The notes below the pieces were generated by a model, which was not told where the DNA came from, did no database searches, and saw only the letters and a list, made by a program, of their open reading frames with translations. A DNA stretch of 5,748 nucleotides from Candidatus Binatia bacterium (GTDB lineage Bacteria > Desulfobacterota_B > Binatia > UBA9968): assembly GCA_025922795.1 (NCBI GenBank), contig JAICHC010000213.1, positions 1 to 5,748 of the forward strand. Direction: 5' to 3'. Made by a program: the position numbers and the translations under genes. Positions 295-5,516 of the stretch are shown here, piece after piece; within the stretch, counting starts at the first letter, position 1, and the number at the start of each line of letters is the position of its first letter.

Positions 295-1164
<870 letters not shown>

Positions 1165-1220
1165 GGCGCTACCATAAGTGTCCTGTCGCAGAACTTCGGA
1201 GATAATTTGAAGGCTTTTTG

Positions 1221-1312
1221 CCGCCATGCCGGCGGAGGCCGGCATCCAAGTTTATCAAACTTCCTGGATTCCGGGTCGCGCTAGCTATCGCCAGCTTGCC
1301 CGGAATGACGGC
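1221..1312. repeat. Compound REP-like palindromic element
   Basis: Three inverted repeats lie end to end in the gap between the ArsC-like gene and purC. ATGCCGGC (1226-1233) pairs with GCCGGCAT (1238-1245) around GGAG. AAGTTT (1248-1253) pairs with AAACTT (1257-1262) around ATC. ATTCCGGG (1268-1275) pairs with CCCGGAAT (1299-1306) around 23 nt. The outer arms carry the ends typical of dispersed intergenic palindromes in many proteobacteria: GGCATCCA on one, and TGGATTCCGG with CCGGAATGACGG on the other. The two units face each other in opposite orientation, like a BIME pair. That the element is dispersed is known of the motif class, not shown here. It could also end or insulate the upstream transcript. 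Confidence 0.6.
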
Positions 1313-1342: not shown

Positions 1343-1690
1343 CTACAGCAGTTGCTTCACTTCGGCTTCGTTAAAGCCGGTCAGTTTTTTCTTGCCTTTG
1401 ATGATCACCGGCCGCTTCAGCAAGTTCGGGTCCCTGAGCATGAGCTTGATGGCTTCCTCCTTCGACGGCGGCTTCTGCTTCATGTTCTTCTCTCTGTACA
1501 GCGGCGTCCGGGTATTCAGAAAAGGCTCGATGGGATCGTCGCCGATGATGCCCCGCAATTCGTTTTCGCTAAGCGGCTGCTTGCCGTACTCGCGCTCGTC
1601 GAAGACGGCTTTTTTTGATTGCAAGAAACTTCTTGCTTTCCGACAAGTCGTTCACGTCCCCTTGTAGATGAATTGGATTCTGTCGGCCAT
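1343..1690 (-). CDS. Selenocysteine-containing ArsC/Spx-family thiol oxidoreductase (TGA read as Sec13)
   Basis: Reading from ATG 1690 through one in-frame TGA (1654-1652) to TAG (1345-1343) gives 115 residues, the usual length of arsenate reductase-like (ArsC/Spx/YffB) proteins. The N-terminus is M-A-D-R-I-Q-F-I-Y-K-G-T-[TGA]-T-T-C-R-K-A-R, so the TGA replaces the catalytic first Cys of the family's CxxC loop, giving U13-x-x-C16. The rest is intact: F-D-E-R-E-Y (30-35), N-T-R (Arg61) and L-K-R-P-V-I (Arg93). Arg61 and Arg93 match the oxyanion-binding Arg60 and Arg94 of E. coli ArsC. A SECIS-like hairpin follows the TGA. The start has AGAGGA 6 nt upstream, touching the UbiD stop, which implies co-transcription and translational coupling. 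Known family roles are arsenate reduction or redox control; with a UxxC motif, a thiol or peroxide-linked redox role is equally possible. The alternatives are a nonsense mutation or sequencing error at TGC/TGT. No sel genes are in view. A start at TTG 1624 would lose the active site. Confidence 0.82.
1621..1636 (-). promoter_or_regulatory. Putative bacterial SECIS hairpin for Sec insertion
   Basis: In the mRNA, 15 nt after the UGA, GCAAGA pairs perfectly with UCUUGC around an AGUU loop; a seventh A-U pair is formally possible. The loop contains the GU dinucleotide that SelB recognises in E. coli fdhF. The loop G is the 23rd base after the UGA, about one codon farther than in fdhF and inside the roughly 16-37-nt range I recall for bacterial SECIS elements. 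A 2x2 A-A internal loop and two more pairs (G-C, A-U) extend the base. The element lies inside the coding frame, as bacterial SECIS elements do. Confidence 0.7.
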
Positions 1691-1696
1691 CAATCG

Positions 1697-1702
1697 TCCT
1701 CT
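1697..1702 (-). promoter_or_regulatory. Ribosome binding site fixing the ArsC-like start
   Basis: AGAGGA lies 6 nt before the ATG at 1690, and its first A is the last base-pair position shared with the TAA stop of the UbiD gene. It supports translation from an ATG upstream of the in-frame TGA, which is what the selenoprotein reading needs. Confidence 0.75.
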
Positions 1703-3084
1703 TATTTGAAGAACTTCGCGACTCGCTCGAACGCGGCCGGTTCGATCTCATTGCGCACAGGCCACTCAGCCTTCGATTTCAACGGTATGGTCGCGTCGAT
1801 AATCGCGACGGTGTCGCCCAACCAGCCGCGGAAGCTCTGCACTTCGCGGATGATCTCGATGTCCTTGTCCCAGTGAACTCGCGTGGCCACGGCCCACATG
1901 ACTTCCCGTTCATTGAAGACGTCGATATCCTCGTCGACAATCACCGCCAGTTTCAGGTTCGGCATTTCGACGAAAGCCTGCATGCCGGCTTTATTCGGCT
2001 CGTTTTCAAACTCCTTCTTAATCGAGATGTAGCAGATGCAACGGCCGCATCCCGAAGCGGGAAGATGAATCCCCCGGATGCCCGGAACGTTTTTCTTGAT
2101 GACGTTGTAAGTGCTGCCTTCTTTGGGGATGCTGCCGAGATTCCAGTGGTCCATATGGCCGGGCCAGAAGTCTTCGACGATGCCGCCGCGCCGGTGTGTG
2201 ATGGCGGTAATTTCGATGACCGGAACGTCCATTTTGGGCTGAGCGTAGCCGAGGATTTCACCGAAGGGGTTTTGTGGTTGGCGCACGCCAGGGAGAATCT
2301 CACCTTCGATAATCACCTCGGCGTCCGCCGGCACCAAAAAGTTGTCGCCCCAGGTCGTCGATGGGGTCAGCCGCAGCGGTTCTTTCAGGAACGCCGATGC
2401 GGTGAGATAGTCGTTATTGCCCATCGGCGTCATGGCGCAAGAGGAAAGATAGAAGGCCGGATGGTGTCCTAAAATCACGATCACGGGCGCGCGCAGATTT
2501 TTGTCCTCGTACTCGCAAGCCATCGCCTCGAGGTGATGATGCTTATGCGCCGAGAAACTCATGTGTTTCGGATCGTGGAATTTATTTTTTGTGAAGGTGA
2601 TATCATAGAAGTCGGCGTTGAGCCCCTTCATTGCGCACGTCATGGTGTGATAAGGACCGGCGTCGCCTTTCTGGTGCATGGGCATCGGCAGCATCCTCAG
2701 ATCGGCCTTATCGCCCGTCAGGACAACTTCCTTGACCGGCGCTTTTTCGGGAGCGACCACTTCAAAGCTGCCTTTTTGCTGTTCCAGCCTGGCCACTTCG
2801 AGACTCACTTCCATGGGAGATTTTATGTCGCCCATATCGAGGGAGTCGGCGACGTACTGGCGCGTGACCCATGGATTGTAAAACATCGGGAACTCGGATT
2901 TTTTGCCGTTGAGCGCGGGCACGTTCTCGAAGAGAACCATCTTGGGCTCATTACGCACGTCGAGGTGCTTCAAATACGCGACGGTCTCATAATTGTTGGC
3001 GTCGATGAAATTGCTCTCGCGGATGACGGAGCCTTCTCGTTTGGCTCCTTCCTGGGCGATGAAGCTCGGCAGATCCTTAGGCAT
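1702..3084 (-). CDS. UbiD-family (prenylated-FMN-dependent) decarboxylase
   Basis: This 460-aa cytoplasmic enzyme belongs to the UbiD family, which reversibly decarboxylates aromatic or alpha,beta-unsaturated acids with prenylated FMN made by a UbiX partner; none is in view. Family marks are the P-M-P-M-H-Q-K-G-D-A-G-P-Y-H-T segment (about 134-148), N156-A-D-F-Y, a His-rich S-A-H-K-H-H-H (178-184), V-P-A-D-A-E-V-I-I-E-G-E-I, N-P-F-G-E276-I-L-G-Y, and a C-terminal half with D-F-W-P-G-H-M-D. The length is within the family's range of about 450-500 aa. Two residues look unusual. The Arg that follows N-x-x-x-Y in UbiD/Fdc1 is Asp161 here, and the first Glu of E-G-P-F-G-E is Gln271. The start at 3084 has AGAGGAG 6 nt upstream. 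The gene sits between ALDH (79 nt upstream) and the Sec ArsC-like gene (11 nt downstream). The substrate is unknown, and the gene should not be read as ubiquinone-biosynthetic ubiD. Confidence 0.88.
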   Translation of the reverse strand: MPKDLPSFIAQEGAKREGSVIRESNFIDANNYETVAYLKHLDVRNEPKMVLFENVPALNGKKSEFPMFYNPWVTRQYVADSLDMGDIKSPMEVSLEVARLEQQKGSFEVVAPEKAPVKEVVLTGDKADLRMLPMPMHQKGDAGPYHTMTCAMKGLNADFYDITFTKNKFHDPKHMSFSAHKHHHLEAMACEYEDKNLRAPVIVILGHHPAFYLSSCAMTPMGNNDYLTASAFLKEPLRLTPSTTWGDNFLVPADAEVIIEGEILPGVRQPQNPFGEILGYAQPKMDVPVIEITAITHRRGGIVEDFWPGHMDHWNLGSIPKEGSTYNVIKKNVPGIRGIHLPASGCGRCICYISIKKEFENEPNKAGMQAFVEMPNLKLAVIVDEDIDVFNEREVMWAVATRVHWDKDIEIIREVQSFRGWLGDTVAIIDATIPLKSKAEWPVRNEIEPAAFERVAKFFK

Positions 3085-3163: not shown

Positions 3164-4750
3164 CTAGCTTCGGATCAGCGCCTTCAGCGCGCTGAGCTTG
3201 TGGCTCAATCCGGAGTGACAAAGCAGATTGAGCAGATGACGCACCTGCCGGGCTTTCTTGGCGGTCGCGGGATACCAGTGAAACTCCGCCTTGAGGCCGA
3301 ATCGGTCGACGAGGACCGTTTTCTGATGGCAAAATTTGCGGATGCCTTCGGCGCCGTGCCGGTAACCGAACCCGCTGTCCTTGCGCCCCCCCGTGGTCGC
3401 GTCGATGACGAGAAAAGTTACGAGGGTGTCGTTGATACAGACCGAACCGCTCTGCAGTTCGTTGGCGATATGCCGGGCCGTGACCGAGTCTCGGCTAAAG
3501 ACGCTGGCGCTCAAGCCGTAACACGAATCATTTGCCAAGCGCAGCGCTTCGTCGGCATCGCGCACCTTAATGAGAGGAATAACCGGCCCAAAGGTTTCTT
3601 CAGTCATCACGCGCATGGAAGGATCGACGTCAATCAGCACCGTCGGTTCGTAATAGAAGCCCGGTAGACTGTCGTTACGTCGGCCGCCGGTGAGCGCCTC
3701 GGCGCCGCGCGCGAGCGCATCATCGACCTGGGCGGCGACTTTTTTTAGTTGTTCTCCCGACGTCAGGCAGCCGATGTCGACCTCGTTTTCGCTTGCGCCT
3801 TGCCGGATGGCACGCACTCGCGCGACGACCTGTTCGACAAACGGTTGGTAGACCCCGGCTTCAACGTAAACACGCTCGATCGATGTGCAACTTTGGCCGC
3901 AGTTCATCAGTGCGCCCCAGACGCACGCCGCCGCGGCGCGTTCGAGATCGGCGTCCTTCAAAACGATCATGGGATCTTTGCCGCCGAGCTCGAGCGAAAC
4001 TGGTATCAACCGTTCCGCAGCCCTGCGCATCACACGCTTGCCGGTCTCAACGCTGCCGGTGAAGGCAATCATATCCGCGCAATCGATCAGTGCCTCTCCG
4101 GTGGCGCCGTAACCTGGTACCACCTGAAAGAGATCCTCAGGGAGCCCGGCTTGGGTAGCAATTTCCGCGCCGAAGAGGGCCGACAGAGGCGTCAGCTCCG
4201 ACGGTTTGATCACGACCGCGTTGCCGGCCATGATGGCCGGCAGGGCTTCGCCCAAAGTCATCACGAGTGGAAAATTCCATGGGCTGATGATGCCGACGAC
4301 TCCCCGCGGCGTGTAGGTCGAGATGACTTTTTTCGGTTTCAGCAGGGGAAAGTCGGGGCGGATTTTTTTCGCCCGCAGATAACGCGCGCTTTTTTTCGCC
4401 CACGCGCCGATCGCGTCGCAAAGATAGAACAGCTCGTTGCCGTAAACCTCCGCGCGCGGCCGGCCGGTTTCGGCCGTCAAAATATCGGCGAGCTTGTCGC
4501 CGTCATCGAGCAGCAGATCGCGCAGCCGGTAAAGTACTTTTGCGCGCTCAGCAAAGCTCGTTTGTTGCCAGGCCATCTGAGCGCGGCGCGCGCGCTCGAC
4601 CGCCGCAGCGACATCACGGGGCGAGGCAACCGGCACTTCCGCAAGGGTTTCCAGCGTGGCAGGGTTACGGACGATGATTGAAGCGAGGCTCACAGGCTCT
4701 TTGCCGTTAACGACAGGTCGTGCCAATTGACCGAGAGTTTTCCATGTCAC
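3164..4750 (-). CDS. NAD(P)-dependent aldehyde dehydrogenase
   Basis: This 528-aa enzyme of the ALDH superfamily oxidises an aldehyde to the carboxylic acid with NAD(P)+. All core motifs are present: P-W-N-F (157-160), I-K-P-S-E with cofactor-binding Lys182, F-T-G-S (230-233), L-E-L-G-G with general base Glu254, N283-C-G-Q-S-C288 with catalytic nucleophile Cys288, and E-E-T-F-G-P (384-389). It is longer than the usual 480-500 aa. After the normal end near K-T-V-L-V-D-R (477-483) comes a tail of about 45 residues that is rich in Lys, Arg and Leu and could dock on a membrane or partner. The start is a GTG at 4750, one base after the SDR stop, with no clear Shine-Dalgarno, so it probably relies on translational coupling. 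The ATG at 4745 is out of frame. The substrate cannot be read from sequence; the neighbours suggest the aldehyde comes from the SDR step and the acid feeds UbiD. Confidence 0.93.
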   Translation of the reverse strand: MTWKTLGQLARPVVNGKEPVSLASIIVRNPATLETLAEVPVASPRDVAAAVERARRAQMAWQQTSFAERAKVLYRLRDLLLDDGDKLADILTAETGRPRAEVYGNELFYLCDAIGAWAKKSARYLRAKKIRPDFPLLKPKKVISTYTPRGVVGIISPWNFPLVMTLGEALPAIMAGNAVVIKPSELTPLSALFGAEIATQAGLPEDLFQVVPGYGATGEALIDCADMIAFTGSVETGKRVMRRAAERLIPVSLELGGKDPMIVLKDADLERAAAACVWGALMNCGQSCTSIERVYVEAGVYQPFVEQVVARVRAIRQGASENEVDIGCLTSGEQLKKVAAQVDDALARGAEALTGGRRNDSLPGFYYEPTVLIDVDPSMRVMTEETFGPVIPLIKVRDADEALRLANDSCYGLSASVFSRDSVTARHIANELQSGSVCINDTLVTFLVIDATTGGRKDSGFGYRHGAEGIRKFCHQKTVLVDRFGLKAEFHWYPATAKKARQVRHLLNLLCHSGLSHKLSALKALIRS

Positions 4751-4751
4751 T

Positions 4752-5516
4752 CTAGACCATGGTCTGGCCGCCGCAGATATTCATCGCTTGTCCGGTGATA
4801 CCGCGAGCGGCGTCCGACGCGATATAGCATACGAACTCCGCGATTTCATCGGCCTCAAGAAAACGCTTGATCGGGACTGCGTCAACGGCCTGGGCTTTAA
4901 ACTGCTCCGGCATGATCCCCAAGTGTGCGGCGGTCTCGTTGATTCCCAAGCTCGCCATCTCCGTGTCCACCCAGCCGGGACAGATCGTATTGACGGTGAT
5001 GCCCCGGCTGACAACTTCCAAAGCGAGCGCGCGGGTAAAGCCGATCATGCCGTGCTTGGTTGTGCAGTAGGCCGCGTAGCCTGGCACGCCGAATTTTCCG
5101 AGCACCGATGAGATATTGATGATTCTGCCGCCGGCTTGATCCGGCATATGTTTTAAGACCGACTTGGTGACGAGATAAAGCCCGTTTAAGTTCGTGTTGA
5201 TGATATCGTACCACTTGGAATCGTCGATGTCGTCGATCAGGCTGAGCCCCGAAATCCCGGCGTTGTTCACCAAAATGTGCACGGCTCCCCAGGTCGCAAC
5301 AACCGTACTGACAGCGCGCTCGACATCGGCCTTGTTTCGCACATCCATGGCGATCGGCAGCACGGCCAAAGAGAGTTTTTTAAATTCAGCGGCGGCCTGT
5401 TCAAGCTTGGCCAGAGTGCGGGAAGCGATGGCCACTTTCGCACCATTTTGGGCCAACTTTAGTGCTATCGCCTTGCCGATTCCGCTGCCCCCACCGGTTA
5501 CTAGAGCTACTTGCAT
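4752..5516 (-). CDS. Short-chain dehydrogenase/reductase (SDR), 3-oxoacyl-ACP reductase-like
   Basis: This is a 254-aa classical SDR, the normal length for the family, with a single Rossmann domain. The N-terminal cofactor motif is T-G-G-G-S-G-I-G (7-14), and N-N-A-G is at 84-87. The catalytic set is Asn109 (N-T-N-L), Ser137 (N-I-S-S), Tyr150 and Lys154 (Y-C-T-T-K), followed by P-G-W-V-D-T (180-185) and a C-terminal G-Q-A-M-N-I-C-G-G. Ser32-Arg33 after the second strand is more typical of NADP(H) than NAD(H) binding, which would be a reductase-like preference. The family covers oxoacyl reductases, sugar and steroid alcohol dehydrogenases and many catabolic enzymes, so the exact substrate is open. 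The start is ATG 5516, just before the Rossmann strand; AAGGA lies 11 nt upstream and AGAGA closer, neither ideal. It is the first gene of the minus-strand block and overlaps nothing; ALDH begins 1 nt after its stop. Confidence 0.92.
   Translation of the reverse strand: MQVALVTGGGSGIGKAIALKLAQNGAKVAIASRTLAKLEQAAAEFKKLSLAVLPIAMDVRNKADVERAVSTVVATWGAVHILVNNAGISGLSLIDDIDDSKWYDIINTNLNGLYLVTKSVLKHMPDQAGGRIINISSVLGKFGVPGYAAYCTTKHGMIGFTRALALEVVSRGITVNTICPGWVDTEMASLGINETAAHLGIMPEQFKAQAVDAVPIKRFLEADEIAEFVCYIASDAARGITGQAMNICGGQTMV

Follow-up and report, generated by a model that had tools for sequence, protein, structure and literature searches.

The window analyzed here, a stretch of 5,748 nt from a Candidatus Binatia bacterium (assembly GCA_025922795.1, contig JAICHC010000213.1), carries on its minus strand a short gene with a single in-frame TGA, which we propose encodes a selenoprotein of the ArsC/Spx family. 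The TGA, codon 13, is the only in-frame stop in a frame of 115 residues, and the readthrough product matches the Pfam family ArsC (PF03960) with 68.3 bits (cut-off 24), in line with an earlier sequence-only reading of the window, according to which readthrough restores a complete protein of this type. That reading also expected standard annotation to report a 93-aa protein from a TTG, which is indeed what is called at the locus; this form would lack the CxxC motif and the first strand. It further proposed a Shine-Dalgarno sequence for the ATG, and an AGAGGA can be recognized by eye. What it overlooked is that the TTG, kept in all 19 sequences of group A (the window protein and its close homologs), sits within the 3′ arm of a hairpin resembling a selenocysteine insertion sequence (SECIS).

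Profile searches place the predicted protein nearer to Spx/MgsR (TIGR01617, 84.4 bits with a cut-off of 75.05) than to arsenate reductases (TIGR00014, 40.6 bits with a cut-off of 106.05). This refines the label “arsenate reductase-like” given by the sequence-only reading. TIGR01617 is also passed by the relatives L036 (76.4) and P0002 (88.4), and three tested pieces of group B fall under its cut-off (60.3, 64.5 and 68.5). On NF041106 (ArsC_rel_Se_1), the window protein reaches 31.6 bits (curated cut-off 85); five relatives were tested, of which four score 38.6, 22, 30.2 and 34.5 and the fifth, L040, is not listed. The best matches of the window protein in both structure (predicted model) and sequence are Spx, and U13, C16, R61 and R93 align with Spx C10, C13, R60 and R92 (Spx residues counted from R60, named as in PMC2801614). 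The TGA falls on the first Cys of the CxxC motif, where the sequence-only reading had placed the catalytic Cys, and the two arginines singled out by that reading, R61 and R93, are conserved in 19/19 group A sequences.

Features of the window and their coordinates
Feature	Position	Strand	Remarks
Spx/ArsC-type (UxxC) selenoprotein gene (predicted), 115 residues	1343..1690	-	ATG 1690-1688, TAG 1345-1343
In-frame TGA (codon 13) for a predicted selenocysteine that opens the CxxC motif	1652..1654	-	
SECIS-like hairpin, 6-bp stem GCAAGA/TCTTGC, apical loop AGTT	1621..1636	-	21 nt 3′ of the TGA
TTG, start of the 93-aa fragment in standard gene calling	1622..1624	-	called frame 1624-1343
Shine-Dalgarno-like AGAGGA, 5′ of the ATG	1697..1702	-	judged by eye
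UbiD-family decarboxylase	1702..3084	-	ends 11 nt before the selenoprotein gene
SAICAR synthetase (PurC), downstream	295..1245	-	listed reading frame probably over-long at its 5′ end
Aldehyde dehydrogenase	3164..4750	-	
SDR	4752..5516	-	

Codon 13 and the downstream hairpin across homologs

Codon 13 is TGA in every one of the 18 close homologs that cover it (64–83% identity, from 18 genomes), and each of them has exactly one TGA; among named genomes, four close loci carry a stop at this codon. A wider ring of 43 genes at 31–50% identity, delimited by hand at an E-value of 8.7e-17 (the weaker rows that were read are other ArsC/YffB-type proteins), contains 30 TGA and 13 Cys forms, so that a homolog search at this column, as suggested by the sequence-only reading, returned both. 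Throughout the 62 sequences compared (49 TGA, 13 Cys), the codon is exchanged for TGC and TGT only. These counts exclude L001–L004 (the same genes as L022, L025, L033 and L029), L005 (no match on rereading), the fragments L080 and L085, and L084 and L086–L091, which belong to other ArsC families. Two more matches at 64–83% identity are 3′ fragments, one in genome G126 and the other an additional match in G134. The former (L080, about 1969–2453) is a 3′ remnant joined to the end of a gene that, by eye, resembles glutaredoxin, and could reflect local decay or misassembly.

A search of 5.8 billion proteins gave 1526 matches. Among the best 120, 119 have lengths of 88–101 aa, which fits truncation after the TGA (one of these is the window's own protein, and the sequences of nine were inspected), and some are annotated, for example, as Spx/MgsR family transcriptional regulator. 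One near relative, P0007, shows 98% identity over the aligned part of the 93-aa protein and lies on a 6.7-Mb contig. The only longer match among the best 120, P0002 (140 aa, 81% identity), has Cys at the TGA column. On a tree of the family, six changes between TGA and Cys are needed, four of them forced by supported branches, indicating that predicted selenocysteine and cysteine replace each other in the window's family; such exchange has been described for other families (PMC1794560). Moreover, the nine codons 5′ of the TGA differ far more at synonymous than at nonsynonymous sites (pS 0.667, pN 0.221, ratio 0.33; 18 sequences), from which we infer that the 12-residue stretch left by normal termination is under protein-level constraint.

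The hairpin past the TGA agrees in stem, loop (AGUU in the RNA) and spacing with the bacterial SECIS rules given in PMC13188914. Its full stem, with pairs defined on the window's own hairpin and counted in that register, is present in 42 of the 49 TGA genes and in none of the 13 Cys genes; in L064, L069, L073 and L079, all TGA forms, AGUU caps a different stem, offset by one base, and these genes are not helped by this register. The 5′ arm includes AGA, a rare Arg codon, in 43/49 TGA genes and 1/13 Cys genes; overall, AGA accounts for 4.0% of Arg codons in the loci of group A, 3.3% in those of the other TGA genes and 1.6% in those of the Cys genes. Five codons of the hairpin are letter-identical in 18 group A sequences (the window included, the frameshifted L033 left out), and in the same set mean synonymous identity is 0.44 just before the hairpin and 0.55 elsewhere. 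In an alignment of 36 TGA sequences out of the 49, the share of cells that pair is 79.5%, compared to 75.4% after shuffling, and none of 500 shuffles came as high.

Selenocysteine machinery in related genomes

We surveyed 148 genomes of the class of G004 and found tRNA-Sec in 107, SelB over its cut-off in 119, SelA in 123 and SelD in 124. In the 48 related genomes with the TGA form, the respective numbers are 40, 44, 46 and 47; at least one of tRNA-Sec, SelA and SelB is present in 47 of them, and all four genes in 38. Ten of the 13 genomes with the Cys form have at least one of the three, and nine have all four genes. The selA, selB and selD genes are adjacent in G004 (C26, 33826–38141), and the Sec site of SelD is TGA in G004, G025 and G028.

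Two genomes, G027 and G023 (L106, L107), gave no match to tRNA-Sec, SelA or SelB and carry the window's family in its Cys form, which fits loss of the whole Sec trait, the completeness of these assemblies being unstated. The Sec site of their SelD is C in G027 and W in G023; selenophosphate may have a different use in these genomes, or else their SelD may be decaying.

Predicted function and alternative explanations

On comparative grounds, selenocysteine decoding at codon 13 is close to certain: the TGA recurs at a position that is Cys in other homologs, the full stem tracks the TGA, purifying selection acts on the codons 5′ of the stop, and tRNA-Sec, SelA, SelB and SelD are found in related genomes. 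As a whole, the best explanation, namely that the gene encodes a full-length 115-residue selenoprotein with a reductase role, appears likely. On the comparative evidence, the hairpin would recruit SelB with Sec-tRNA, and selenocysteine would be inserted at the UGA in place of termination. Compatibility of SelB and SECIS is often confined to one lineage. The protein is predicted by its model to adopt the Spx/ArsC form of the thioredoxin fold. Fold and motif suggest that the selenolate of U13 most likely makes the attack in a redox cycle and that C16 would resolve the intermediate by forming a selenenyl-sulfide, R93 and R61 lying close to the site; this division of labor between U13 and C16 is probable, and a thioredoxin- or glutaredoxin-like partner would then re-reduce the protein. 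The product is probably a reductase of the thiol-disulfide/peroxide type, whose most likely job would be to reduce a disulfide, a peroxide or a similar oxidized substrate, perhaps tied to its conserved UbiD neighbor.

The UbiD gene, whose proximity had been pointed out by the sequence-only reading, lies directly upstream in the window and precedes the gene in 14 of the 18 close loci, which makes it a concrete lead to the substrate. The minus-strand gene order is SDR, aldehyde dehydrogenase, UbiD, selenoprotein gene and PurC; the latter follows the gene in 4/18 close loci (within flanks of at most about 1.5 kb). On the plus strand at 1–207, the contig edge truncates an open reading frame whose end matches Peptidase_C15 (pyroglutamyl peptidase; profile positions 138–169). 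Rfam at gathering thresholds gave no match in the window, ARAGORN found no tRNA in it, and an inverted-repeat search of 1160–1345 found none.

Several observations weigh against the selenoprotein reductase. We infer its role from fold and motif. P0002 is a Cys form despite its 81% identity to the window protein, the homolog in G126 is a 5′-truncated remnant, and that in G003, one of the 18 close homologs with TGA, is frameshifted near its 3′ end. The association between form and machinery (47/48 vs 10/13, Fisher 0.028) is weak on its own because most of the class has the machinery, and two genomes with the TGA form, both of unstated assembly completeness, have little of it: G130 has just a partial SelD, and G002 has tRNA-Sec only. 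The energy of the hairpin (−7.3 over 24 nt and −7.6 over 36 nt) lies right at the limit of −7.5 kcal/mol or lower published for bacterial SECIS elements (PMC13188914); over 54 nt it is −11.6, and this 54-nt fold is just 1.38 standard deviations below shuffled sequences. TGA and Cys genes are not told apart by the folding energy of the whole region (mean z −0.54 and −0.42, respectively). Covariation of the pairs is modest, and a structure slid by two columns scores higher (0.112 vs 0.087). Under a loose loop rule, a hairpin is found in 48/49 TGA genes but also in 6/13 Cys genes, or in 46/49 and 3/13 at −5 kcal/mol or lower. Since folding energy and covariation are weak, the hairpin argument rests on the freezing of its codons and on the contrast in stems between TGA and Cys genes.

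An Spx-type regulator, in which U13 and C16 would form a redox switch in a protein that binds RNA polymerase and is no enzyme, would account for Spx being the best structural and sequence match, for the score above the cut-off of TIGR01617, a model named for the RNA polymerase-binding proteins Spx and MgsR, and for the retention of Spx R60 and R92 in all of group A. However, Spx G52, which is reported to be absolutely required for Spx-activated transcription via contact with the alpha subunit (PMC2801614), is replaced by Pro in 18/19 group A sequences and by Glu in the remaining one, Spx K62 is replaced by Pro, Ala, Leu or Ser, and the chain stops at Spx residue 114, compared to lengths of 120–132 in the best-matching solved Spx chains. 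We thus consider such a regulator unlikely, and the same applies to its fuller version, a selenocysteine switch in a lineage where it is repeatedly exchanged for Cys and does not occur in any genome that has the other UxxC ArsC-like selenoprotein (see below); if true, selenium chemistry would here sense oxidants and control transcription instead of catalyzing a reaction. Still more doubtful is a selenocysteine arsenate reductase. Despite the ArsC fold, the score on TIGR00014 is far below the cut-off, the motif of the window protein is UxxC where the ArsC-like rows inspected have UxxS (6/6) or CxxS (5/6), and there is no ars gene among the four annotated neighbors.

Gene callers appear to treat the locus as a pseudogene or as a genuine 93-aa protein from the TTG, and the remnant and the frameshift in two relatives could be taken as signs of decay. 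The sequence-only reading had argued against random nonsense or sequencing error, and had asked for relatives free of other lesions. Its argument is upheld by the 18 close homologs with the same TGA, each with this one TGA, and is qualified by the genes of G003 and G126. With the same TGA in 18 genomes we rejected a pseudogene or an error; coding constraint 5′ of the TGA and Cys at the same column in homologs point the same way, and a 93-aa protein would be left without its motif and first strand. All of these possibilities are very improbable. Even less credence is due to a UGA read as another residue, by general reassignment or plain readthrough, which a lone in-frame TGA in an otherwise open gene might suggest. 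Here, PurC in the same window ends with TGA as an ordinary stop, and codon 13 alternates with Cys codons only, on which grounds we rejected a changed code; the full stem, too, tracks the TGA.

Relation to known ArsC-like selenoproteins

Selenoproteins related to ArsC have been reported before. Two ArsC-like sequences appear in a 2006 survey (PMC1794560), and the Global Ocean Sampling survey (PMC2398784) lists UxxS and UxxC types, so that such proteins are already in print, as the sequence-only reading had suspected. Both types are included in a 2022 review (PMC9312934, with UxxC as COG1393), and a 2026 review (PMC13188914) links an “Arsenate reductase-like protein, UxxC” to NF041106. The source cited by both reviews for this protein probably corresponds to the entry “Arsenate reductase 2, UxxC” in PMC2398784. 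The main text of the 2026 review has no occurrence of spx or TIGR01617. Our literature search, with most subscription journals outside its scope and judged from listings, returned no paper joining selenocysteine with Spx/MgsR and none describing selenoproteins of Binatota/Binatia; one Binatota paper has the word in a reference only.

In the class of the window's relatives, L086–L091 make up another ArsC-like family, whose catalytic codon is TGA within an NPGUGQSR-type motif (UxxS, a type reported from marine metagenomes). Such genes can accompany the window's family, as L088 in G034 (Cys form) and L091 in G055 (TGA form); the TIGR00014 name rests on the best match, since L086 scores 74.9 on that model over a 95-residue piece (cut-off 106.05). 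A third UxxC clade, Spx-like and with TGA, comprises L104, L105 and L126–L130 from other genomes of the phylum (motif similar to FCWSRUTTCRKAREFL); two members tested are just under the cut-off of TIGR01617 and far under that of NF041106. In a tree of 50 rows, for which 22 rows were picked by hand from the 62 of the family and whose program warned of long branches meeting, the third clade (seven rows, all TGA) has support of 98/97 and group A of 99/99, each standing apart, and groups A and B unite at 92/88, under the starred support level.

The predicted subfamily is well supported and missed by annotation: the lengths of 119 of the best 120 among the 1526 matches omit the active site. It also provides a clean natural experiment, in which TGA and Cys forms occur together, the hairpin is frozen, the full stem is absent from Cys genes, and some genomes seem to have become devoid of Sec machinery by loss.

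With Spx/MgsR (TIGR01617; Bacillus subtilis Spx, 1z3e) the window protein shares the fold, the position of the CxxC motif and the equivalents of R60 and R92, but it has predicted Sec in place of C10, lacks G52 and K62, is shorter at the C-terminus and has a UbiD neighbor. The UxxS arsenate reductase selenoprotein (PMC2398784; assigned to TIGR00014 in PMC13188914) has the ArsC fold and Sec at the catalytic Cys as well, whereas its motif is NPGUGQSR-like and the ArsC-like rows make up a separate clade (100/98). Closest in kind is NF041106, likewise small and of ArsC fold, in which a predicted Sec opens the UxxC motif; it is found in 30 of the 148 genomes of the class, each time with one TGA. Yet the window protein is far below its cut-off, six of the 30 genes that were fetched score 14.5–27.5 bits on a profile of the window's family, and these six rows make a clade of their own (100/99). 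Moreover, the window's family occurs in 61 of the 148 genomes and never together with NF041106 (Fisher 1e-8, uncorrected for kinship); this mutual exclusion suggests a shared role of the two UxxC selenoproteins, and shared genome ancestry could give the same pattern. The sequence-only reading had taken this member to be undescribed; it belongs to a widespread family of a kind already in print. Thus, predicted ArsC-like UxxC selenoproteins are known as a kind, and on account of its low NF041106 score, its separate branch and the lack of any shared genome among the 148, the window's predicted selenoprotein family is a new, separate subfamily among them.
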